A DNA stretch of 42,041 nt from Pseudomonadota bacterium. GTDB taxonomy: Bacteria > Pseudomonadota > Alphaproteobacteria > Rhizobiales > Beijerinckiaceae. The notes beneath the pieces were generated by a model, which did no database searches, had not been told where the DNA came from, and saw only the letters and a program-made list of their open reading frames with translations. Where the stretch lies: positions 1-42,041 of the forward strand of contig JAIUNQ010000010.1 of the NCBI GenBank assembly GCA_020161475.1. Direction: 5' to 3'. The number at the start of each line of letters is the position of its first letter. The first letter of the stretch is position 1. Positions 19,170 through 30,487 of the stretch are shown in pieces. The position numbers were made by a program, and so were the translations under genes.

Positions 19170-21410
19170 CTAGCCCGTGAACTTGTTGGATCGCGGGAAG
19201 CCCTTGGGTGGCAGGCGACCGGTCTGCGCACGATGACCCAACCAGGGGAGTAATTCGTCGCCCTTCAAGTTGAAGGTGCGCCCCGAGGAATCGTTCCAGC
19301 TCAGACCATCGGCAAGGTTGAAGGTCTTCAGATCCACAATGCCGCCTTCCTTGTAGCGCTGGAGGCGCACACCCTTGCCGCGCGGCATCTCGGCCACTTC
19401 CGCCAGCGGGAAGGTCAGCAGGAGGCGATTTTCGCCGACAATCGCGACGTGATCGCCCTCGACCACCTGTGCAAGCCAGAGGCGGGCATCATCCACATTC
19501 ATCACCTGCCGCCCCTTGCGGGTGGTGGCGAGAAGATCTTCGGCAGAGACGATAAAGCCGCGCGAATCTTTCGCGGCCAGCAGGCGCTTCTGCCCCGCAA
19601 TATAGGGGAAGGCCGCCATGATCTCGGCCTCGGCATCGAGATCGACCATCAAGCGGATGGGTTCGCCAAAGCCGCGCCCGCCGGGGAGCTTGCTGGCTTC
19701 CAGCGTAAAGGCCTTGCCGTCCGTCGAGAGCAGCAGGATTTTCGCCGTGGTTTCCGTGGGGAAGGCGAAGGCCAAGCCGTCATCGCCCTTGTATTGCAGG
19801 TTGGACAGATCCACCCCATGCCCCTTGAGCGCGCGGATCCAGCCCTTCTGCGTGACGACCACGGTGATCGGCTCGCGCTCGATAAGCGCTTCAGCGACAT
19901 CCATCGAGACTTCGCCAACAACGCCGAAATCCGAGCGGCGCTTGCCGAGGGGCGTGTCCTTCGAGAAGGCTTTGGCGACCTGCCCGATCTCCCATTTCAC
20001 GGTTTTCCACTGCTTTGCCTCAGAGGCCAGCAGGGCTTCAATATCCGCCTTTTCTTTCGACAGCTCGTCGTGTTCGCGGCGCAGCTCCATCTCCTCCAGC
20101 TTGCGCAACTGGCGCAGGCGGGTGTCGAGAATGGCATTGGCCTGCACTTCCGTGATGTCAAAGCGCTTCATCAGCACAGGACGCGGCTCGTCCTCCTCGC
20201 GGATGATGCGGATCACCTCATCGAGGTTAAGGAAGGCGATGATAAGGCCGCCCAGAATCTCAAGGCGCGCCTCGATTTTCGCGAGGCGATGGCGCGAGCG
20301 GCGCAGCAGGACATCGCGGCGGTGATCGAGGAAGGCGCGCAGCAGCTCCACAAGGCCGCAGACGCGCGGCACCTTGCCGTCGATCAGCACGTTCATGTTG
20401 ACCGAGAAGCGCGTTTCCAACTCGGTGAGCTTGTAGAGCGCCTCCATCAGCAGCGCCGGCTCGACATTGCGCGCGCGCGGCTCAAGCACGATGCGCACGT
20501 CTTCCGCCGATTCATCCCGCACATCGGCGAGCAGCGGCAGCTTCTTCTCGTTGAGAAGCTCGGCGATCTTCTCGATCAGGCGCGATTTCTGCACGCCGTA
20601 AGGAATTTCGGTGACGACGACAACATAGCCGCCGCGCCCGGTCTCTTCCTTGTGCCAGCGGGCGCGTGTGCGCACCGCGCCGCGCCCGGTGCGATAGGTT
20701 TCCAGCAGGCTGGCGGGGGATTCCACGATCGTGCCGCCGGTCGGGAAATCCGGACCCGGCACATGCTTGATCAGGTCTTCCACCGTGGCGGCCGGGTTGT
20801 CGATCAACTCGATGGCGGCGGCGCAGAGTTCGGCGGCGTTATGCGGCGGGATCGAGGTCGCCATACCCACCGCGATGCCCTGAGAGCCATTGGCCAGCAG
20901 GTTGGGGAAGGCGCCGGGGAGCACAATCGGCTCCTCGTTCTGACCATCGTAATTGGGACGGAAGGAGACCGCGTCCTCGTCGATCCCTTCGAGCAGCAAC
21001 CGCGCCACCGCGGTCATGCGCGCTTCGGTGTAGCGGTAGGCGGCGGCGGAATCCCCGTCGATGTTGCCGAAGTTGCCCTGCCCGTCCACCAGCGGATAGC
21101 GCGAGGAGAAATCCTGCGCGAGACGCACCAGCGCGTCATAGATCGCCTGATCGCCATGGGGATGGAAGGTACCCATCACGTCGCCGACGATTTTCGCGCT
21201 TTTCTTGAAGGGCGCATCGGGGCTCAGGCGCAGCAGGTGCATCCCGTAGAGAATGCGGCGATGCACCGGCTTCATGCCGTCGCGCGCATCCGGCAGGGCG
21301 CGATGCATGATCGTGGAGAGCGCATACGCGAGGTAGCGCTCTTCCAGCGCATCGCGCAGCGGAATAGCTTCGATGCCGTTTGGCGGGGTAGGATCGACCG
21401 GTTTGCCCAA
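19170..21410 (-). CDS. parC: DNA topoisomerase IV subunit A
   Basis: 746 residues. ParC pairs with ParE to decatenate replicated chromosomes. The winged-helix core has [14 protein letters not shown] (83-96, quinolone-resistance region) and [10 protein letters not shown] with catalytic Tyr127. The tower and coiled-coil region spans about 330-460, and the C-terminal beta-propeller-like part, with GxxxG-rich repeats, about 490-730. The start is TTG at 21410, with GGAAAG 6 bases upstream. A 15-codon frame (21413-21460) ends 2 bases before it and begins inside a conserved upstream element, which may couple translation. It could be confused with GyrA, but the N-terminal [20 protein letters not shown] is ParC-like. 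Confidence 0.95.
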
Positions 21411-21436
21411 GATTACTTTCCATCGACCCTCGGCGT

Positions 21437-21514
21437 GACCTTGCGGTCTTCCTCGGGCATTTCCCTCGCAACGGGCTGCTGAAGCAGCCCCGCTCGGCGT
21501 CGCATTCGCTCCTA
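21437..21514 (-). repeat. Composite hairpin element upstream of parC (copy A)
   Basis: In the gene's direction: box 2 (GCGACGCCGAGC), a central hairpin (8-bp stem 21473-21480 with 21483-21490), box 1 (CGTTGCGAGGG), and a proximal 4-bp hairpin GACC-GCAA-GGTC (21437-21448). Box 1 begins 53 nt from the start codon. A further near-perfect 11-bp hairpin (21517-21540) lies upstream. The boxes match copies before acpS and rsh; the central stem has a different sequence but keeps pairing. Confidence 0.75.
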
Positions 21515-21604
21515 AAGCGGGCTTTCCAAGGAAACCCCGCCTCCTAGGGGTTAGACCATCCTAATGGCCTGCTTCAAGGCTGGCGCGGCGATTTCCCCCG
21601 CCAA

Positions 21605-22330
21605 TTACAGGGCAAGCAGCTTCTGGACGAGTTCGGTGCGCGGTCCCTGATGGGAAAGCCCGCGCGGGCCGTAAAGGTGGCGCTCCAGAAAGAAGCCGGA
21701 GAGCGCAAAACCGGCGGCGAGCGTTTCGCTTGGCACAGCCGCAATCGGGGCGTCCTCCGCCACGAAGGCCGGCAGGGCGAGCAGGCGCGGCGCATAGGGT
21801 GCGCCAGCTGCGGCGCTCACAGCGCGGCCTGATTTTGGGGAGACATAGATCAGCTCCTCCGTTGCGCCCGTGGCGGCACAACACGACAGATCCAGCCCGA
21901 AGCCGAGGTCGGAGAGGATCATCAGTTCGAAGCGCACCAGCACCGGGCCCAGAAGCTGCGGCATGGCGAGGAGATCCAGCATGCCATCCGCTGCGTGATA
22001 GAGCGCCTCGTGCGGGTCACGCTCAGGCAGCAGGCGGATCAGCGCGCCGATGTGGTTGACGGCGGCAAGCGCCAGCGGGTTCGCCAGCACGAAGGCGGCG
22101 CGGCTTTGAACAACCTCGGCGGTGAAGGCACCCAGATGCTCCTCCAGCCGCGCGCGCCAGGTGAGGGTGAGACGGTTACCGGGTTGCAAGGTGCTGGCGT
22201 GTTTGGGCCCGCGCCCGCCACGCACCAGCCCCATGTGGCGACCATGTGCCCGGGTGAGGACTTCGAGAATGCAATCGCGCTCGCCGTGGCGGCGCGCGGC
22301 AATCACAAGGCCCTCATCATCCCATTGCAT
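21605..22330 (-). CDS. recO: DNA repair protein RecO
   Basis: 241 residues. RecO helps load RecA on SSB-coated gaps in the RecFOR pathway. The N-terminal OB fold (about 1-80) starts MQWDDEGLVIAARRHGERD and includes HGRHMGLVRGG. The helical and zinc-like part has FELMILSDLGFGLDLSCCAATG (quoted in part: LGFGLDLSCCAATG), typical of alphaproteobacterial RecO. The start is ATG 22330 with GAGGG upstream. A TTG 17 codons earlier is in frame, but it lies inside the upstream repeat element and is less likely. It lies 136 nt after era. Confidence 0.93.
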   Translation of the reverse strand: MQWDDEGLVIAARRHGERDCILEVLTRAHGRHMGLVRGGRGPKHASTLQPGNRLTLTWRARLEEHLGAFTAEVVQSRAAFVLANPLALAAVNHIGALIRLLPERDPHEALYHAADGMLDLLAMPQLLGPVLVRFELMILSDLGFGLDLSCCAATGATEELIYVSPKSGRAVSAAAGAPYAPRLLALPAFVAEDAPIAAVPSETLAAGFALSGFFLERHLYGPRGLSHQGPRTELVQKLLAL

Positions 22331-22348
22331 TTTTTCGCCCTCAGGAGC

Positions 22349-22437
22349 GACCTTCCTGCCCGGAAGGTCACCTTCGGGCAAGCCCCTCGCATAAGCTCGG
22401 CGGCCCGTTCGGGCCTAGCCTTGGCCTTTGGCCAAGG
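22349..22437 (-). repeat. Composite hairpin element upstream of recO (copy D, lacking central stem)
   Basis: The proximal hairpin GACCTTCC-5-GGAAGGTC (22349-22369) is perfect. Box 1 (CCCTCGCA on the + strand, 22384-22391) starts 54 nt from the recO start codon. A shortened box 2 (GCTCGGCG, 22395-22402) follows directly, as if the central hairpin had been deleted. Two more hairpins lie upstream: GGCCCG/CGGGCC (22402-22415) and CCTTGGCC/GGCCAAGG (22419-22437). The copy is degenerate. Confidence 0.55.
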
Positions 22438-22466
22438 CGGGTGCCCCGTTCAAGACGGACCACTCG

Positions 22467-23387
22467 TTACTTCTTCTTCTCGTGCGGGAATTCGAGGCCC
22501 ATTTCGCGGTAGCGCTCCGGATCTTCCGACCAGTTCTCACGCACCTTGACGAAAAGGAAGAGGTGAACATTCGCCTCCGCCGCCTCGATGATCTCCTTGC
22601 GCGCCGCCGAGCCGATGGCCTTGATGGTCGCGCCGCCCTTGCCCAGCACGATCTTGCGCTGGCTTTCGCGCTCCACGTAAATCGTCTGCTCGATGCGCAC
22701 ATCGCCGTTCTTCATCGTGGTCCATTGCTCGGTTTCCACGGTGGAGCGATAGGGCAGCTCGTCGTGCAGGCGCTCGAAAATCTTCTCGCGCGTGATCTCG
22801 GCGGCCAGAAAACGCAAGGGCGCATCCGAAATCTCATCCTCCGGATAAAGCCACGGGCCGAAGGGGAGCTTGTCCTCGAGGTAATCGAGGATCGCGTCGG
22901 TGCCGTAGCCCTTGAGCGCGGAGATCATGAAGGTCGCGTCGAACTTGGCCCTCTCGTTGAGCTTGGCCGTAATCGCCAGCAGCTTTTCCGCCGGGAGCAG
23001 GTCAATCTTGTTAAGCACGAGGAATTTGGGCTGCTTGACCTCGCCCAGCGCATCGAACAGCGCTTCCTCGCTCTCATCATCGTAATGGGTTACGTCCACC
23101 AGCACGCCGACGCGGTCCGCATCCGCCGCCCCGCCCCAGGCCGAGGTCACCATCGCGCGCTCCAGCTTGCGCTTGGGCGAGAAGATGCCGGGCGTGTCGA
23201 CGAAGATGATCTGGCTCTGGCCCTTCATCGCGATGCCGCGGATCTGGGTGCGCGTCGTCTGCACCTTGCGCGAGACAATCGACACCTTGGCCCCAACGAG
23301 CTGGTTGAGCAGGGTCGATTTGCCCGCGTTCGGCACGCCGATGAGCGCCACGAAGCCACAGCGGGTGGGGGTGGAGCCTTCAGTCAT
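22467..23387 (-). CDS. era: GTPase Era
   Basis: 306 residues. Era is an essential GTPase that binds the 3' end of 16S rRNA during 30S maturation. The G1 loop is GVPNAGKST (17-25), G3 is DTPG near 65, and G4 is NKID near 125. The C-terminal KH domain (about 200-290) holds QRKIVLGKGGATIKAIGSAAR. It starts 8 nt inside rnc, the standard rnc-era overlap, so the two are translationally coupled. Confidence 0.97.
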   Translation of the reverse strand: MTEGSTPTRCGFVALIGVPNAGKSTLLNQLVGAKVSIVSRKVQTTRTQIRGIAMKGQSQIIFVDTPGIFSPKRKLERAMVTSAWGGAADADRVGVLVDVTHYDDESEEALFDALGEVKQPKFLVLNKIDLLPAEKLLAITAKLNERAKFDATFMISALKGYGTDAILDYLEDKLPFGPWLYPEDEISDAPLRFLAAEITREKIFERLHDELPYRSTVETEQWTTMKNGDVRIEQTIYVERESQRKIVLGKGGATIKAIGSAARKEIIEAAEANVHLFLFVKVRENWSEDPERYREMGLEFPHEKKK

Positions 23388-24054
23388 TCAGCAAGCCTTC
23401 GCGTTTGAGCCATTCTTCCGCGGCGGCCCGCTCGGCCACGCGTTTGGAGGGGCCATGCCCCGAAATATCCGCCTTGCCGGACACCCGCACCGCCACCTCG
23501 AACCGGGGAGCATGGTCGGGGCCGGTGCGGCCAATGTCGTGATAGGTCGGCACGGGAAGCCCGCGCGCCTGCACAATCTCTTGCAGCAGGGTTTTGGCGT
23601 CTTTCGGCACGATGCGCGGCGCCTGCATACGCGCCGTCCAGTTCTCGCGCACCAGCTTTTCCGCCGCCGCCAAGCCGCCGTCGCGGTAGATGGCGCCGAT
23701 CACCGCTTCGCAGGCATCGCCCAAAATTGCATCGCGCTTTTTCGCGCCGGAGCGCTTCTCACCCTCACCCAGACGCAACTCATCGCCCAGACGCCACTCC
23801 CGCGCGACATCGGCGCAGGTTTCCTTGCGCACGAGATCGGCGAGACGTTTTGAAAGATCGCCTTCAGGGGCGGTGGGGAAGGCCTCGAACAGCATGGTCG
23901 AGACGATCAGCCCCAGCACACGATCGCCCAGAAACTCAAGGCGCTGATAGCTGTGCTCGCGCGAGCCGGCGCTGACATGCGTGAGCGCTTCTTCCAGCAG
24001 ATCGGTGTTGGAAAAGGTGTAACCCAGCCGCTTTTCGAGGGCGGATGCCGCCAT
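23380..24054 (-). CDS. rnc: Ribonuclease III
   Basis: 224 residues. It cleaves double-stranded RNA in rRNA and mRNA processing. The catalytic signature YQRLEFLGDRVLGL and the second acidic patch GDACEAVIGAIY are intact. The double-stranded RNA-binding domain occupies about 155-220 (APRFEVAVRV, KRVAERAAAEEWL). The start at 24054 (MAASALEKRLGY) shares one base with the lepB stop (TAATG). An open extension of 21 codons upstream overlaps lepB and is not family-like. Confidence 0.96.
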   Translation of the reverse strand: MAASALEKRLGYTFSNTDLLEEALTHVSAGSREHSYQRLEFLGDRVLGLIVSTMLFEAFPTAPEGDLSKRLADLVRKETCADVAREWRLGDELRLGEGEKRSGAKKRDAILGDACEAVIGAIYRDGGLAAAEKLVRENWTARMQAPRIVPKDAKTLLQEIVQARGLPVPTYHDIGRTGPDHAPRFEVAVRVSGKADISGHGPSKRVAERAAAEEWLKREGLLND

Positions 24055-24812
24055 TACTTCACTCGCTGGAAAATGCGGGACCAACGTGCATCCGTCGGCC
24101 ATTTCCACACCTGCCACGGCGCCGTGCCCTCCTCCACAGAGAAGAAGATCACCTCGGCGCGGCCCACGAAATTCTCATAGGGCACATAGCCGACGCTTTG
24201 CAGATCGCGACTGTCGGTCGAGTTGTCGCGGTTGTCGCCCATCATAAAGAAGTGGCCGAGCGGGACGGTGTATTCAATGGTGTTGTCCCAATAGCCGGTG
24301 TTCCCCTCGCGCTCGATGACGTTGTAGCTCACGCCATTGGGCAGGGTTTCGGTGTAGCGCGGAATGCGCGCCATGCGCCCGAAGGCGTCGCGGCTTTCCA
24401 TGAAGCCCGCCGCTTCCTTCTTCACCGGCTGGCCGTTGATGCGCAGCACGCCATCGAGCACCTGCACCTTGTCACCCGGCAGGCCAATGACGCGTTTGAT
24501 GTAATCGGTCTCGTTATCCTTGGGCAGCTTGAAGACGGCGATGTCGCCGCGCTTGGGTTCCGCGCCCCAGATGCGCCCCTTGATCGGCGCGATGGAGAAG
24601 GGGAAGGAATGCTTGGAATAGCCATAGGCGTATTTGGAGACGAAGAGATAATCGCCCACCAGCAGGGTCGGGATGAGCGAACCTGAGGGGATGTTGAAGG
24701 GCTGGAAAGCAAAGGTGCGGATGACGACCGCAATCAGAAGCGCCTCGAGGATGACGCGGATCGTCTCGCCCAAGCCGCCTTCGGATTTCTGCCCAGTGCT
24801 GTCCATCGCCAT
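24054..24812 (-). CDS. lepB: Signal peptidase I
   Basis: 252 residues. LepB removes signal peptides at the outer face of the cytoplasmic membrane. One membrane segment lies at about 18-38. The catalytic serine is Ser45 in PSGSLIPTL (Leu replaces the common Met after it) and the base is Lys106 in DYIKRVIGLPGD. The C-terminal box GDNRDNSTDSRD is present. AAGGA lies upstream of the ATG at 24812. The order acpS-lepB-rnc-era is a classic alphaproteobacterial cluster. Confidence 0.97.
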   Translation of the reverse strand: MAMDSTGQKSEGGLGETIRVILEALLIAVVIRTFAFQPFNIPSGSLIPTLLVGDYLFVSKYAYGYSKHSFPFSIAPIKGRIWGAEPKRGDIAVFKLPKDNETDYIKRVIGLPGDKVQVLDGVLRINGQPVKKEAAGFMESRDAFGRMARIPRYTETLPNGVSYNVIEREGNTGYWDNTIEYTVPLGHFFMMGDNRDNSTDSRDLQSVGYVPYENFVGRAEVIFFSVEEGTAPWQVWKWPTDARWSRIFQRVK

Positions 24813-24913
24813 CTCAATGTCCTTAGAAGTCGTGCGGGTATAGCGAAGCGCGTGATGCAGGGCAATCGCGGCGGGGGTATGGCCGGATTTATGTGCTGGT
24901 GCTGTTTGTGGAG

Positions 24914-24931
24914 CACCTTGGTCCCAAGGTG
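24914..24931. repeat. Palindrome between acpS and lepB
   Basis: A perfect palindrome CACCTTGG-2-CCAAGGTG four bases after the acpS stop. No T-run follows, so it is not a standard terminator; it may stabilise the acpS mRNA end or be a dispersed palindrome. Confidence 0.5.
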
Positions 24932-24935
24932 GGGT

Positions 24936-25334
24936 TTAGACCGGCACGGCCTCGATCACCACAAAGGCCTGCGCGAAGGGCTTGTCATCCGTAATGGTGA
25001 GGTGAATGCGCGCGCGGTGACCCGGCGGCGTCATGGCCGCCAGACGCTCCTTAGCGCTGCCGGTGAGTTCCATGGTGGGCTGGCCGGATCTGAGGTTGAC
25101 CACCCCCATCTCCTTCCACGCGATGCCCATGCGAATGCCGGTGCCCAGCGCCTTGGCGCAGGCCTCTTTTGCGGCAAAACGCTTGGCATAGGAGGCGATA
25201 CGCTCGGCCCGCCCCTCGGATTTCGCGCGCTCGACATCGGTGAAAACGCGATTGATAAAACGCTCGCCGAAGCGCGCCAGCGTATCGCCGATGCGGTCGA
25301 TATTCGCAAGATCGGAGCCGATACCGAGGATCAT
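24936..25334 (-). CDS. acpS: Holo-[acyl-carrier-protein] synthase
   Basis: 132 residues. AcpS transfers the 4'-phosphopantetheine arm from CoA to acyl carrier protein. The family N-terminus [15 protein letters not shown] (Asp8 binds Mg) and [15 protein letters not shown], with the second metal-binding Glu, are intact. The start at 25334 is supported by GGAG 6 bases upstream and by the canonical N-terminus. An in-frame ATG at 25379 lies inside the upstream repeat element and would add 15 residues. Confidence 0.97.
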
Positions 25335-25353
25335 TGTTTTCTCCGCCCTCCCG

Positions 25354-25425
25354 AATGGCCCGCGGCCATTGTCGGGCATTTCCCTCGCAACGGATGCTCG
25401 CGCATCCTGCTCGGCGTCGCGTTGC
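25354..25425 (-). repeat. Composite hairpin element upstream of acpS (copy B)
   Basis: The proximal hairpin AATGGCC-3-GGCCATT (25354-25370) is perfect. Box 1 is at 25382-25392, 48 nt from the start codon. The central hairpin GGATGC-4-GCATCC spans 25392-25407 and box 2 spans 25408-25425. GCAACG and CGTTGC at the two box ends can also pair around the central hairpin. This is the cleanest single copy. Confidence 0.8.
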
Positions 25426-25435
25426 AATCTTATTC

Positions 25436-25508
25436 TGGCATCCGCTTTTTCCGCCAATCGGCTTCCACTTGGCGGGCGGATGCTTCTACCACCTGCTCCC
25501 GCAGGTGG
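25436..25508. repeat. Two further hairpins between the acpS element and pdxJ
   Basis: A long imperfect inverted repeat with outer arms GCATCCGC/GCGGATGC and inner arms CCGCCAA/TTGGCGG runs from about 25438 to 25483. A perfect 8-bp hairpin CCACCTGC-TCCC-GCAGGTGG (25489-25508) begins 5 bases after the pdxJ stop. Neither has a T-run. Together with copy B they fill the whole acpS-pdxJ gap with palindromes. Confidence 0.65.
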
Positions 25509-25512
25509 CTTT

Positions 25513-26268
25513 TCAGACCTTCACCAGACCACGGCCGAGGTCCATGGCGTGGCGCATCTGGCGCAAAGCCTCGCTCATGCCGACAAAAACGGCCTCGCCG
25601 ATCAGGAAATGGCCGATATTGAATTCCACGAACTGCACGCAGCCCGCGAGGCGCTCGGCGGTGGCGTAATCGAGGCCATGGCCCGCATGCACCTCCAGCC
25701 CCGCCGCATCGGCAAAGCGCGCGCCGCGCACCAGGCGCGAAAACTCCGCCTTGGCCATGGCGGCATCGCCCATCTCAATGGCATGGCACCAGGTGCCGGT
25801 GTGCAGCTCGACAATGTCGGCCTCGAGCGCCTTGGCGGTCTCGATGGCGCTTTCATCGGCCTCAATGAAGAGGGAGACGCGAATGCCGGCATCCTTCAGC
25901 GTGCCGATAGCGCGGCGGATATGATCGGTGTCGTAATGCAGGTCCAGCCCGCCTTCGGTGGTGCGTTCCTCGCGCTTTTCCGGCACGAGGCAGCAGGCAT
26001 GGGGCAGCACCGAGCAGGCGATTTTCACCATCTCCTCGGTGGCGGCCATTTCGAAGTTGAGCGGGCGCGAAATCTCGCTTTTCAGACGGCGCATATCCGC
26101 ATCGCGGATGTGGCGACGATCCTCACGCAGGTGCGCCGTGATGCCGTCCGCCCCTGCCGCAATCGCCTGATGCGCGGCGCGGATCGGGTCCGGCCGCAGG
26201 CCGCCGCGCGCGTTGCGCAGGGTGGCGACGTGATCGATGTTCACACCAAGGCGAATGGGAAAAGGCAT
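25513..26268 (-). CDS. pdxJ: Pyridoxine 5'-phosphate synthase
   Basis: 251 residues, TIM barrel. It condenses 1-deoxyxylulose 5-phosphate with 3-amino-1-hydroxyacetone phosphate to form pyridoxine phosphate (vitamin B6). Landmarks are [16 protein letters not shown] near the N-terminus, [34 protein letters not shown] and EFNIGHFLI, which hold the active-site His and Glu residues and the phosphate loop. The length is normal. It lies between pyrE and acpS on the same strand, with palindrome-filled gaps on both sides. Confidence 0.97.
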
Positions 26269-26335
26269 GTTACACTCGTTTAAGCGATGACATTTTGCAC
26301 TGACGTGCCGACAACATCCATCTTTTTGCTTTTAC

Positions 26336-26400
26336 GCATTTTCGCTTGCGCGGCCCTCCGGGTCTTCACGCGAACCGGTGCCCACTTCGCTCGAAAATGC
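26336..26400. repeat. Rhizobiales-type dispersed palindrome between pyrE and pdxJ
   Basis: Outer arms GCATTTTCG (26336-26344) and CGAAAATGC (26392-26400) enclose an inner segment that on the - strand reads CGAAGTGGGCACCGGTTCGC, then GTGAAGA. I recognise this as the intergenic palindrome found in many copies in Rhizobiales genomes (GCATTTTCGAGCGAAGTGG followed by an ACCGGTTCGCGTGAAGA core). Its arm overlaps the last base of the pyrE stop codon. Confidence 0.75.
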
Positions 26401-26987
26401 TATGCGCCCTGAATACCGCGCGAACCAGGCTTCACCGGGGGCAGCTTGGCAAGTTCGGGCGGAAGCTCGCTCGGATCATAATCGGGCACGGCAAATTCGC
26501 ACAGCGCCACCAGCGGCACGCCGATGTTCACCTTGCCGCCCGAGCGGTCGATGAGGCAGGCCGCGCCGACAATCTCGCCCGGCTGATCCGCCAGCGAATT
26601 GATGCATTCGCGCGCGGAAAGCCCCGTGGTGATGATGTCCTCGATCACGAGAACCTTCTCGCCCTTGTGAATCTCAAAGCCGCGACGCAGGTGGAATTCG
26701 CCATCCTCGCGCTCCACGAACAGCGCGCGCGCGCCCAAGGCACGGGCGATCTCGTAGCCCGGCACGATGCCGCCGATGGCCGGGGAAACCACGACATCGA
26801 TCTTGCCGTAGCGAGCCACGATCTTCTCGCCGAGCGCGCGGCAGAGCTTTTCCGTCAGCGCGGGGCTTTCGAACACGCGCATCTTCTGGATGAAGAAGCC
26901 GGAGCGGCGACCGGAGGAGAGAATGAAATGTCCTTCCAGCAGCCCGCCCGCCTGACGGAACACATCGAGGACTTCATCGCGCGTCAT
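26400..26987 (-). CDS. pyrE: Orotate phosphoribosyltransferase
   Basis: 195 residues. PyrE joins orotate to PRPP in pyrimidine synthesis. The PRPP-binding motif [14 protein letters not shown] is at about 113-126, and [11 protein letters not shown] near 28-38 is the N-terminal substrate segment. The longer C-terminus (about 175-195) is typical of the alphaproteobacterial subgroup. The start lies 2 nt after the stop of the upstream thioesterase gene. The stop codon abuts a dispersed palindrome, so an inserted repeat may have shaped the end of this protein. Confidence 0.96.
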
Positions 26988-26989
26988 GT

Positions 26990-27469
26990 CTAACCACCCT
27001 CTTGTTTGGGGAAAATCATGCAGGTCTCGGTGCCGTGGGCGTAAACCTTCCCGGCCTCATCGACAAGGGAGGCTTCGCTGAAGGCCAGCGTACGGCCCCG
27101 GTTGATCACGCTGCCGCGGCAGATAAGACGCCCCGGCTTGCCCGGATAAATGGGGCGGACGAAGGCCACCTTCATCTCCACGCTGGTGTAGCGCTCGCCC
27201 TTTTCCAGCGTGGAATGCACCGCGCAGGCCAGCGCTGAATCGAGGATCGTCGCAGCCCAGCCGCCATGGATCGAGCCGATGGGGTTGTAACTCTCCTCGC
27301 CGGGCGAGCCTTCAAACACTGCAACCCCTTCCGAGGCTTCGATGAGGCGGAAATTGAGGGTCGCGGCAATCGGCGGACCGGGAAGCTCGCCGGCGATCAT
27401 GGCGCGCAGCGTCTCCAGCCCGGTCATGCGCTCATGAAAGTCCGGCGGCAGGATGGAAGGACGGGACAT
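26990..27469 (-). CDS. PaaI-family (hotdog fold) thioesterase
   Basis: 159 residues. The hotdog segment is [20 protein letters not shown] (about 70-89), with the helix that carries the catalytic acid, followed by [11 protein letters not shown]. Such enzymes hydrolyse acyl- or aryl-CoA thioesters; the substrate is not predictable. The start at 27469 is fixed by AGGAG 6 bases upstream (an ATG 14 codons earlier is not supported). It lies between rsh and pyrE on the same strand. Confidence 0.88.
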
Positions 27470-27550
27470 GGCAGCTCCTGCATTGGGGGGGCGATGCGAG
27501 CATCCGATCACGATGCCCTGCGCCCCCGTGTCATGTTCATGACTGAACCA

Positions 27551-29734
27551 TTACCCAATGATGCGCTCGCAACTGGCGACCATCGGCTTGGTGCGCAAGG
27601 CCGAGAGGATCGCGTTGAGATGTTTGAGGTCCCAGACCTCCAGCGTGATCTGGATCTCGCGGAAGTCCGCCGTTTTCGAGCGCATGGCGATGGTGTCGAT
27701 ATTGGCGTCCGTATCCGCGATCGCGCGCGTGATCTCGGCCAGTGAGCCGGGCTCATTGATGACGGAGACGATGAGATCAGCCGAGTAACGGCGCGGGTCA
27801 TGCTCGTCCACGTCCCAGCGCACATCGAGCCAGCGCCACGGCTCCTCATCATAGGCCACCAGCGCGGGGGACTGGATCGGATAGATGGTGATCCCCTCCC
27901 CCGGCGTCAGGATGCCAACGATGCGATCCCCCGGCACGGCACCGCCATCCGGGGCGAAGCTCACGGGTAGATCATCGGAAAGGCCACGAATGGGAATGGA
28001 GCCGGTGGCTTCTGCGCCCGGCACCTTGAACTTGAGCTTTTCCGCGCCGGACACTTCGAACCAACCCGCGCCCGTGCCGGGCGCTGCGCCCTTGGCCACC
28101 TCTTCGCGGAAATCCGGGAAGACGGATTTGATGACATCGCCCGAATACATCTCGCCACGGCCCACGGCGGTGAGCACGTCATCGAGCGAGGAACGCGCCA
28201 GACGCGGCAGGGCGGCGATGAGTTTTTCTTCCGAGAAGGTCTTGTTGGCGCGCGTGAAGGCGCGCTCGACAATCTTGCGACCAAGCCCCGCGAACTGCTT
28301 CTTCACCGCCTCGCGCGTTGCGCGGCGGATCGCGGCGCGGGCCTTGCCGGTGACGACCAGGCTCTCCCAGGCGGAGGGCGGCACCTGCCCTTGCGTTGTC
28401 AGGATTTCGACCTCATCCCCGTTCTGAAGCTCGGAGATGAGCGGCGCGTTGCGCCCATTGATGCGGCAGCCCACCGCGTTGTTGCCGACATCGGTATGGA
28501 CCGCATAGGCAAAATCGATCGGGTTTGCGCCGCGCGGCAACGCGATGAGCAAGCCCTTGGGCGTGAAGCAGAAAACCTGATCCTGAAAGAGTTCGAGCTT
28601 GGTGTGCTCCAGAAACTCTTCCGGATTATCCCCTTCGGCCAGTAGGGCAATGGTGCGGCGCAGCCAGCGATAGGCGTTGGACTCCCCGCCCTCGGCCAGC
28701 TTGCCTTCCTTGTAAGCGGCGTGGGCGGCGATGCCGAACTCCGCCGTTTCATCCATGCCGCGCGTGCGGATCTGCAGCTCCACGCGCTGGTGTTTGGGGC
28801 CGACCACGGTGGTGTGAATGGAGCGATAATCGTTGTGTTTGGGGGTCGAGATGTAATCCTTGAAGCGCCCCGGAACAAATGGCCACGCCTGATGGATGAT
28901 GCCGACCGCGCGGTAGCAATCCTCGGTGCTGTCCACGATGACGCGGAAGCCGAACACGTCGGAGAGCTGCTCGAAGGAGATGCTCTTGCGTTCCATCTTG
29001 CGCCAGATGGAGTAGACGCGCTTCTCGCGCCCCTTGATGATGCCCTTGATGTTGCGCGCGGCGAGCTTCGCGCCGAGATCCAGCTCGATGTGCTCGATCA
29101 ACCCTTCGGACCGGCGACGCAGCGCTTCCAACCGGGAGACCATCATGGTGTGCGCGTCGGGCATAAGCACGCGGAAGCAGATGTCCTCCAGCTCCTCGCG
29201 CATGTCCTGCATGCCGATTCGCCCCGCGAGCGGCGCGTAGATATCGAGCGTTTCCTCGGCAATGCGGGCGCGCTTGTCCGGCGGCACAAAGTGCAGCGTG
29301 CGCATGTTGTGCAGGCGGTCCGCCAGCTTCACCAATAGAACGCGCGCATCGGCCGCCACCGCGAGCAGCAGCTTGCGCAGGTTTTCCGCCTGCGCCGCCT
29401 TTTTGGACACCAGATCAAGCTTCTTGATCTTGGTGAGGCCATCCACCAGATCGGCGATATTGCGCCCGAAACGGCTCTCGATATCGGCGTGGGTGGTGGG
29501 GGTATCCTCGATGGTGTCGTGCAGAATCGCCGCTGCGATCGTCTCCTCATCCACGTGCAGATCGGTGAGAATCGCCGCCACTTCGAGAGGATGCGTGAAG
29601 TAGGGATCGCCCGAGGCCCGCTTCTGGTTGCCGTGCGCCTTCATGGCATAGACATAGGCGCGGTTGAGCAGATCCTCGTTGGCATCGGGCGCGTAGCGCT
29701 TGACCCGCTCCACCAATTCGAACTGGCGCATCAT
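27551..29734 (-). CDS. rsh: Bifunctional (p)ppGpp synthetase/hydrolase, Rsh
   Basis: 727 residues, the single long RelA/SpoT homologue typical of alphaproteobacteria. The hydrolase domain (about 25-180) keeps THPLEVA (47-53) and LHDTIED (71-77), the HD and ED manganese ligands. The synthetase domain (about 240-350) has STPKHNDYRSIHTTV. The TGS domain (about 385-450) holds FTPKGLLIALPRGANPIDFA, and an ACT domain covers about 650-727. Both activities should be functional, so it can make and remove the alarmone on starvation. The upstream leader carries 2.3 tandem units of the hairpin element. rpoZ lies upstream on the same strand. Confidence 0.97.
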   Translation of the reverse strand: MMRQFELVERVKRYAPDANEDLLNRAYVYAMKAHGNQKRASGDPYFTHPLEVAAILTDLHVDEETIAAAILHDTIEDTPTTHADIESRFGRNIADLVDGLTKIKKLDLVSKKAAQAENLRKLLLAVAADARVLLVKLADRLHNMRTLHFVPPDKRARIAEETLDIYAPLAGRIGMQDMREELEDICFRVLMPDAHTMMVSRLEALRRRSEGLIEHIELDLGAKLAARNIKGIIKGREKRVYSIWRKMERKSISFEQLSDVFGFRVIVDSTEDCYRAVGIIHQAWPFVPGRFKDYISTPKHNDYRSIHTTVVGPKHQRVELQIRTRGMDETAEFGIAAHAAYKEGKLAEGGESNAYRWLRRTIALLAEGDNPEEFLEHTKLELFQDQVFCFTPKGLLIALPRGANPIDFAYAVHTDVGNNAVGCRINGRNAPLISELQNGDEVEILTTQGQVPPSAWESLVVTGKARAAIRRATREAVKKQFAGLGRKIVERAFTRANKTFSEEKLIAALPRLARSSLDDVLTAVGRGEMYSGDVIKSVFPDFREEVAKGAAPGTGAGWFEVSGAEKLKFKVPGAEATGSIPIRGLSDDLPVSFAPDGGAVPGDRIVGILTPGEGITIYPIQSPALVAYDEEPWRWLDVRWDVDEHDPRRYSADLIVSVINEPGSLAEITRAIADTDANIDTIAMRSKTADFREIQITLEVWDLKHLNAILSALRTKPMVASCERIIG

Positions 29735-29759
29735 GCGCGGTTTCGCCTCTTCTTTAGTG

Positions 29760-29980
29760 GCCGGGCGAGAGGCCCGGCGATCCCTCGCAACGGATGCTTG
29801 CGCACCCTGCTCGGCGTCGCGTTGCTCCTACCCCTGACGGGGAGGCTATCCTTGCCGGGCGAGAGGCCCGGCGATCCCTCGCGACGGATGCTTGCGCACC
29901 CTGCTCGGCGTCGCGTTGCTCCTACCCCTGACGGGGGAGGCTATCCTTGCCGGACTGGGGTCCGGCGATCCCTCGCCCCG
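29760..29980 (-). repeat. Tandem composite hairpin elements upstream of rsh (copies C1-C3)
   Basis: Two full units of 94-95 bases (29760-29853 and 29854-29948) and a third partial unit (29949-29980). Each full unit has a GCCGGGC-5-GCCCGGC hairpin, box 1, a central hairpin GGATGC-TTGC-GCACCC, box 2 and a CCCC-TGAC-GGGG hairpin. In the third unit the first stem is GCCGGA/TCCGGC, a paired change. Box 1 of the first unit begins 48 nt from the rsh start codon, as in acpS. Confidence 0.85.
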
Positions 29981-29994
29981 GTGAACAGGCGAAA

Positions 29995-30020
29995 GAAAAG
30001 GCGGCCGAACGGGCCGCCTT
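29995..30020 (-). terminator. Terminator of rpoZ
   Basis: A 9-bp stem AAGGCGGCC/GGCCGCCTT (29998-30006 with 30012-30020), a 5-base loop and a T-rich tail on the - strand, about 70 nt after the rpoZ stop. Confidence 0.85.
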
Positions 30021-30088
30021 GATCAGTATGTCAGCATTTGAGCCGCGCGCAACCAACGGCGTGCAGCGCAACAGAAATTTCTGTTGGA

Positions 30089-30487
30089 TCAATCGTCGTC
30101 GTCGTGGCCCGAGGGCGGCACGAGGCCATCGAGGCCCCGCAGCAGATCTTCCTCGGACATGCGATCGAAGTTGACTTCGCTGTCATCGACCTCGGAAAGC
30201 GTGATCTTGGGCGCGGCACCCGGCAGGCGCGGCACAGCCTCGGCCTCAGGCTCGTCCACTTCCACGAACTTCTGGAGCGAGTGGATGAACTCTTCCTTCA
30301 GATCGCCGGGCGAAAGGCGCTCATCCGCGATTTCGCGCAGGGAGACAACCGGGTTTTTGTCGCGGTCACGCGCGACGAGCGGCTGGGCGCCGCTGGAGAG
30401 CATGCGCGCGCGATGCGAGGCCAGGAGAACCAGCTCGAAGCGATTCTCGACCTTGTCCACGCAATCTTCGACGGTAACGCGGGCCAT
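30089..30487 (-). CDS. rpoZ: RNA polymerase omega subunit
   Basis: 132 residues. Omega supports RNA polymerase assembly and forms part of the ppGpp site in proteobacteria. The start [20 protein letters not shown] is diagnostic, followed by [12 protein letters not shown] and [12 protein letters not shown]. The acidic C-terminal tail (about 85-132, ending HDDDD) is common in alphaproteobacteria. Placement next to rsh is conserved in proteobacteria. Confidence 0.97.

Follow-up and report, generated by a model that had tools for sequence, protein, structure and literature searches.

The window analysed here, a whole contig of 42,041 nucleotides (nt) from a Beijerinckiaceae bacterium (JAIUNQ010000010.1; genome of 3.08 Mb in 320 contigs), carries between positions 21437 and 29980 several copies of a composite palindromic element, which an earlier note on this DNA had taken for a shared leader element at a fixed distance upstream of parC, recO, acpS and rsh. 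Our results make it probable that the element is a dispersed, non-coding composite repeat of one genus, resembling the repetitive extragenic palindromes (REPs), with hairpins that would act on mRNA stability as those of REPs do. It is best filed as a new REP-like composite repeat, not as a leader family, so that an apparent regulon signal becomes a dispersed repeat. The conservation of its structure, its placement and the turnover of its copies were observed directly. The copies may have arisen by dispersal and local tandem duplication, and would be transcribed as 3' untranslated or intercistronic RNA, in which the hairpins, by analogy with REPs, would most likely hold back 3'-to-5' exonucleases and provide processing sites; the effect would be a changed mRNA stability around the gap rather than the sensing of a signal in a leader. 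REPs stabilise mRNA, according to an excerpt of one report (PMC12306157).

Number, placement and turnover of the copies

A search with the covariance model R2, built from 64 sequences, yielded 47 copies at 38 intergenic sites of this genome (E ≤ 0.01), which bears out the repeat family that the earlier note had named as its main alternative. The count is a lower bound, taken from 150 scored candidates, and the copies used to build R2 match it by construction; two coding look-alikes were dropped before counting. In a pattern search independent of the model, the exact pair of boxes on which the earlier note was based (box 1 with box 2) turned up 10 times in the genome and its reversed control not once, whereas the boxes taken singly, with up to two mismatches, occurred at or weakly above chance (26 found against 27.7 expected, and 34 against 21.5); the significance resides in the box pair, not in either box alone. 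Arrays of the element are same-strand, head-to-tail direct repeats of 2-4 units, mostly spaced near 90 nt.

Of the 38 sites, 17 are flanked by convergent genes, 18 by codirectional genes (14 in sense and 4 in antisense) and 1 by divergent genes, while 2 near a contig end have an unknown left neighbour; 21 of the 36 classifiable sites (the 17 convergent and 4 antisense) are therefore not before a same-direction start codon. Nearly all of the classifiable sites (35 of 36) lie between codirectional or convergent genes. In the same stretches 82 gaps lack the element, and 70 of them are of these two kinds (62 codirectional and 8 convergent, the other 12 being divergent). Convergent gaps are in marked excess: they account for 17 of the 36 sites (16 if genes are filtered as strictly as for the element-free gaps) and for 8 of the 82 gaps that lack the element (Fisher p 1.3e-5). 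The 62 sites in congeners, many of them mutually orthologous, are distributed as 26 convergent, 21 codirectional sense, 3 antisense, 5 divergent and 7 incomplete, and where the right neighbour is named, the site never precedes parC, recO, acpS or rsh. All neighbours and distances come from a home-made codon-usage gene caller, with some starts uncertain and low-scoring calls to the left of site C108 and to the right of site C31.

The distances of 53, 54, 48 and 48 nt reported for parC, recO, acpS and rsh are correct when box 1 is measured from its gene-proximal edge and when parC begins at the TTG at 21410, apparently its start (an ATG lies 13 nt further upstream, out of frame). They are not specific to start codons. 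Over the genome, the core lies at a median of 46 nt from the neighbouring start codon (15 starts, with C31 at 284 nt omitted) and of 38.5 nt from the neighbouring stop (22 stops; p 0.27), which does not support a leader element held at a fixed distance. Gaps without the element have medians of 16.5 nt (codirectional) and 18.5 nt (convergent), as against 236 and 222.5 nt with it; the apparent fixed distance arises because the last hairpin of the element, P3, and a short residual gap separate the core from the gene. Short intergenic gaps can thus create a false fixed spacing.

We compared era-region stretches from 16 congeners, some of them cut by contig ends or differing in gene order, and every corresponding gap that could be seen was empty of the element (era-recO in 16, pdxJ-acpS in 10, rpoZ-rsh in 9, recO-parC in 1; recO and parC are about 1.6 kb apart in 5 other congeners), and R2 matched none of the 16 loci at E ≤ 1. 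With congener gene positions extrapolated from tblastn ends and our own gaps taken from gene calls, pdxJ and acpS overlap or abut in 9 of 10 congeners (gap of -12 to 6 nt; 64 nt in the tenth) and are 178 nt apart here, while the rpoZ-rsh gap measures 124-172 nt in congeners and 354 nt here. Because the congener gaps are empty, the window copies look like insertions in this bacterium's own lineage. A covariance-model search of relatives, as the earlier note had proposed, did recover 90 copies in 13 of the 16 congeners and none in the other 3 (E ≤ 0.01), yet none at the visible gaps that correspond to those of the window genes.

These data bear directly on whether the element could be a family of cis-regulatory leaders, riboswitch-like or acting at the ribosomal site and selected at a fixed distance from housekeeping start codons. 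Such a family would account for the 14 of 36 classifiable sites in sense before a codirectional gene, together with one before rph, for the compensatory changes in the stems described below, and for the leader of accD, occupied in 11 of 17 genomes. We consider it distinctly unlikely, since 17 convergent and 4 antisense sites stand among the 36, spacing to stops is like that to starts, the congener gaps at recO, acpS, rsh and parC (16, 10, 9 and 1 seen) are empty, Rfam gave no match, and short and long forms of the element swap at orthologous accD leaders; apart from accD and ffh (6 of 17 genomes), copies were not found in the 5' leader of the same gene across species. Location relative to genes is largely what the earlier note had expected of an ordinary dispersed repeat, that is, random in distance and orientation, whereas the absence of covariation that it had also expected of one was not found.

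Structure and folding of the element

The alignment A2 used for the structural analysis holds 64 of the 89 distinct listed copies; the 25 left out include third-form and near-duplicate copies. In the sense direction the element consists of a P0 hairpin often ending in CTAGG, the P1 hairpin (GGAGC-loop-GCGAC), CCGAGC, either TTA or a variable P2, GCGAGGGA, and the P3 hairpin, over a length of about 110-150 nt, with long and short forms. Pairing in P2 is kept in 90.7% of cells, and five of its six pairs change on both sides. For P1 and P2 together covariation reaches 0.286, against 0.065 in shuffled alignments and 0.086 in the best slid version, in agreement with the earlier statement that stem sequences change between copies and keep pairing. 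P1 holds a tandem G.A step in 37 of 64 copies; in 18 copies this is replaced by GC/GC, and in 2 by CC/GG. If both tandem G.A and standard pairs score as a match, P1 is matched in 58 of 64 copies, where shuffling gives a mean of 31.6 and a maximum of 41.

Box 2 corresponds to the 3' arm of the P1 hairpin followed by CCGAGC, and in single-sequence folds this CCGAGC can pair with the GCGAGG of box 1 through a tandem G.A, so that the two boxes are probably not independent single-stranded motifs. The G.A letters of the CCGAGC/GCGAGG helix are kept in 61 of 64 copies, and one of its pairs changes from G-C to A-U in two copies and to A.C in one; covariation is barely informative here because most of the pairs never vary. 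Each of the 8 copies folded individually was more stable than its shuffled versions were on average (z -1.5 to -3.7), although 15 of 200 shuffles of the rsh copy were equally stable. Across the 38 sites of this genome P3 folds with a mean z of -2.45 (30 of 38 below -1). With 10 G.U against 3 A.C in the P2 cells of the sense strand, selection on RNA is favoured only weakly over selection on single-stranded DNA. A GCGAC/GTTGC stem around the central hairpin (model R1) was tried as the outer helix and rejected: it shows no change on both sides and fails where P1 reads GCGCC or GGGCC, copies in which P1 keeps pairing.

Strong GC-rich hairpins at gene 3' ends would also suit an intrinsic terminator or attenuator cassette, which is nevertheless very improbable. 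None of the 6 terminator-like sites in 21400-30100 (shuffle mean 7.1) falls in P2 or P3 in sense; one weak match on the + strand (25412-25424) overlaps the acpS copy, and the rpoZ terminator at 29998-30020 is separate. By eye, P3 is followed at the 38 sites by mostly A-rich, not T-rich, sequence, and acpS, accD, ffh and parC, which are essential in other organisms, lie directly downstream of copies in sense. No sigma-70 promoter-like site was found in 21400-30100.

Several observations weigh against a dispersed REP-like repeat with the fold described above. The CCGAGC/GCGAGG helix appears in the minimum-energy fold of 4 of the 8 copies only, and the whole P1 helix only in those of two folded copies with a Watson-Crick P1; when standard pairs alone are counted, GCGAC/GTTGC pairs in 83.0% of cells and P1 in 71.3%, which counts against P1 as the outer helix; and P0 is weakly supported at the 38 sites (mean z -1.03, 15 of 38 below -1). 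In the codirectional gaps of this genome sense copies outnumber antisense ones by 14 to 4 (p 0.031), a bias that a blind insert would not show, and neither an exact empty site nor a target duplication or terminal inverted repeat could be established. Finally, the leader of accD is occupied in 11 and that of ffh in 6 of the 17 genomes (our own included), which a purely selfish repeat need not explain; some sites, accD and ffh among them, are old or reused.

Old sites, taxonomic range and relation to known repeats

In a tree built from four proteins, some of whose nodes have weak support, occupancy at accD and ffh extends across deep splits, and the ppi-ppi gap is occupied in several species. 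At some orthologous sites the stems differ by paired changes, part of which may be unit exchange, since tandem units recombine; at orthologous accD leaders, short and long forms interchange. It is possible, although we hold it to be rather doubtful, that the family originated at accD (perhaps also at ffh and ppi-ppi) as an intercistronic RNA with a function, was kept there since the root of the genus with compensatory stem changes, and dispersed elsewhere later. The core would then be two hairpins with tandem sheared G.A steps (GGAGC/GCGAC and CCGAGC/GCGAGG), the first swappable for Watson-Crick pairs, forming an RNA architecture of a new kind that a processing enzyme or an RNA-binding protein would recognise, and the CGTC-type REPs discussed below would be its stripped relatives. 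The accD leader is the more interesting point in that it leads us to question whether some copies become fixed RNA parts of operons. Three empty ffh leaders scanned with Rfam contain the known ffh RNA motif RF01793. In the ffh leaders L168, L171 and L173 (genomes G004, G008 and G011), GACGGGAGCGGGCAAGCCCG units lie upstream of ffh, in tandem in L171, and resemble another local repeat.

Outside the genus the element is rare. In an order sample of 297 genomes, 3 of them of the genus, R2 matched two non-genus genomes: the match in G033 (L220) is a perfect short form, while that in G053 (L221) resembles coding sequence and was not counted as a copy. The G033 match and one in G018 (L060) look real or plausible, so that the family extends beyond the genus. 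A scan of named genomes (48 stretches) gave strict copies in Rhabdaerophilum sp. SD176 and in several Beijerinckiaceae metagenome-assembled genomes, which makes Rhabdaerophilum the probable genus of the present bacterium; many stretches came from unrelated taxa such as Streptomyces. The acpS copy used as a plasmid search query gave no match. The remark that the motif is not a described one agrees with Rfam, which gave no match over the window at gathering scores and none at E ≤ 1 for 21400-30100, and with a literature search in which no title or abstract described this repeat.

The P1 core, GGAGCGAAGCGAC(G), recurs as the core of a widespread repeat whose arms read ATTGC/GCAAT. As a query for this type we used a 36-nt version, which we take to belong to the CGTC-tagged REP superfamily from its CGTC-AT start and CCA tail. 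This query is matched at 36 of 36 positions in two Methylosinus plasmid records and at 97% in two Methylocystis records. In 92 viral-contig stretches the 17-mer GCGAGGAGCGAAGCGAC occurs 98 times, and 76 of these occurrences have both arms; for the first 80 stretches the figures are 66 of 85. A 22-mer is found in 18 of 297 order genomes (at most one mismatch) and in 6 of 17 genus genomes (at most two mismatches), one of which, G012, is a copy of the present element; where a single locus per genome was inspected by eye, in four genomes of the order and in the other five of the genus, the arms were present. Those five (G004, G005, G008, G011 and G015) carry 0-5 copies of the present element, and the eight genomes with at least six copies have no CGTC-type match except G012, itself the element. 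A genus that holds CGTC-type REPs and a related composite repeat in largely different species should be useful for studying the origin and spread of REP families without a transposase.

Apart from the identical P1 core, the accD-leader copies of G014 and G002 have 18 nt in common with the 36-nt CGTC-type query, although the module order differs, and the core is probably shared by descent. An excerpt of Di Nocera et al. 2013 (PMC3733652) describes the CGTC-tagged REPs, whose members include Rickettsia RPE-4/RPE-6 and neisserial dRS3, as extragenic palindromes found chiefly in alphaproteobacteria, lacking a dedicated transposase and located between codirectional and convergent genes, all of which resembles the present case. 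In contrast, CGTCATT occurs within 60 nt of none of our 38 sites (TGTC/CCTC variants were not counted), the A2 consensus having CGTTGCGAGGGA instead; the aligned copies have no ATTGC/GCAAT outer stem or AT-led stem and carry the additional hairpins P0, P2 and P3; and CGTC-tagged REPs are predominantly head-to-head dimers, whereas our arrays are head-to-tail (head-to-head pairs were not searched separately). Since tag, stem and dimer all fail to agree, we regard the element as REP-like but do not file it as a CGTC REP.

The GTAG REPs and bacterial interspersed mosaic elements, which go with a REP-associated tyrosine transposase (RAYT), are likewise dispersed extragenic palindromes at gene 3' ends, with a like placement as far as the same excerpt describes them (PMC3733652), but GTAG precedes P1 in 5 of 64 copies and CTAG in 32. 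Moreover, no Y1 (RAYT/IS200-type) transposase (PF01797) was found in the 17 genus genomes (controls were positive in 5 of 14; other transposase families were not searched), on which ground a RAYT/IS200 origin was rejected. A miniature inverted-repeat transposable element, a small transposon relic with terminal inverted repeats mobilised in trans by a resident transposase, would suit the near-confinement to one genus, the size, the arrays and the intergenic placement. We think this unlikely, as no terminal inverted repeats were noticed by eye in listings whose ends were not formally tested, Y1 transposases, the sole family searched, occur in 0 of 17 genomes, and an element driven by its termini has no need of compensatory change in internal stems. 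The BOX elements of Streptococcus pneumoniae, as an excerpt of PMC3049150 presents them, offer a parallel to a REP-like composite repeat in being modular, with optional or multiplied modules, an excess in convergent gaps, predicted RNA hairpins and a narrow host range; compared by description and not by sequence, they differ in their reported terminal inverted repeats and target duplication, not shown for our element, which also lacks the boxA-boxB-boxC order (PMC3049150).

Copies in the window

R2 finds five full copies (E 3e-14 to 1e-9) in the window, each of them on the - strand, at parC, recO, acpS and, in tandem, two at rsh; all except the second rsh copy are among the 64 sequences used to build the model. 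The description of one composite element at four loci thus stands as to family and strand and for the exact boxes at parC, acpS and rsh, but not for recO, whose copy is a short form that reads GCCGAGC-TTAT-GCGAGGG, without a central hairpin, without CGTTGCGAGGG and with two differences in box 2. A single element per locus likewise holds at parC, recO and acpS, whereas rsh has two tandem copies and a partial third.

The core of the parC copy (21462..21522; 63.5 bits, E 7e-13) is of the long form, with TTAGG on its 5' side followed by P1, CCGAGC, P2 (GGGCTGC/GCAGCCC) and GTTGCGAGGGA; its P3 region was read from the sequence at 21426..21461, and the minimum-energy fold retains only part of it. 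The recO core (22383..22425; 50.6 bits, E 1e-9) has a GGCCC/GGGCC P1 and CCGAGC-UUAU-GCGAGG in place of the central P2 stem, and folds with z -3.73. Its predicted stems are P3 at 22335..22382 and P0 at 22419..22437 (CCTTGGCC/GGCCAAGG), the 3' arm of the latter overlapping the core match. At acpS the core (25381..25439; 53.8 bits, E 2e-10) is again long, with a GGATGC/GCATCC P2 and a degenerate P1 side, and P3 is a predicted stem at 25344..25380.

The gene-proximal rsh copy (29781..29838; 69.0 bits, E 3e-14) has its predicted P3 stem at 29757..29780. The second copy (29875..29932; 65.8 bits, E 2e-13), 94 nt upstream and assigned to repeat family D1, reads CGTCGCGAGGG as box 1. The partial third unit, read from the sequence at 29945..29980, consists only of GCGAGGGA and a P3-like hairpin, with box 1 at 29970-29980 carrying two mismatches. 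Between rpoZ and the rsh copies the hairpin at 29998-30020 resembles an intrinsic terminator, and similar sequence was seen in congener gaps.

A second palindromic repeat, of the type GCATCCGCCCGCCAAGTGG..CCGATTGGCGG..GCGGATGC, adjoins the acpS-side copy at 25440-25490 and also occurs just upstream of the copies at L012, L015 and L018. As this repeat abuts several copies of the element, intergenic gaps here appear to be mosaics of repeat families. A similar palindrome with GAACCGGTGCCCACTTCGC lies in the pdxJ-pyrE gap of the window (26330-26400).

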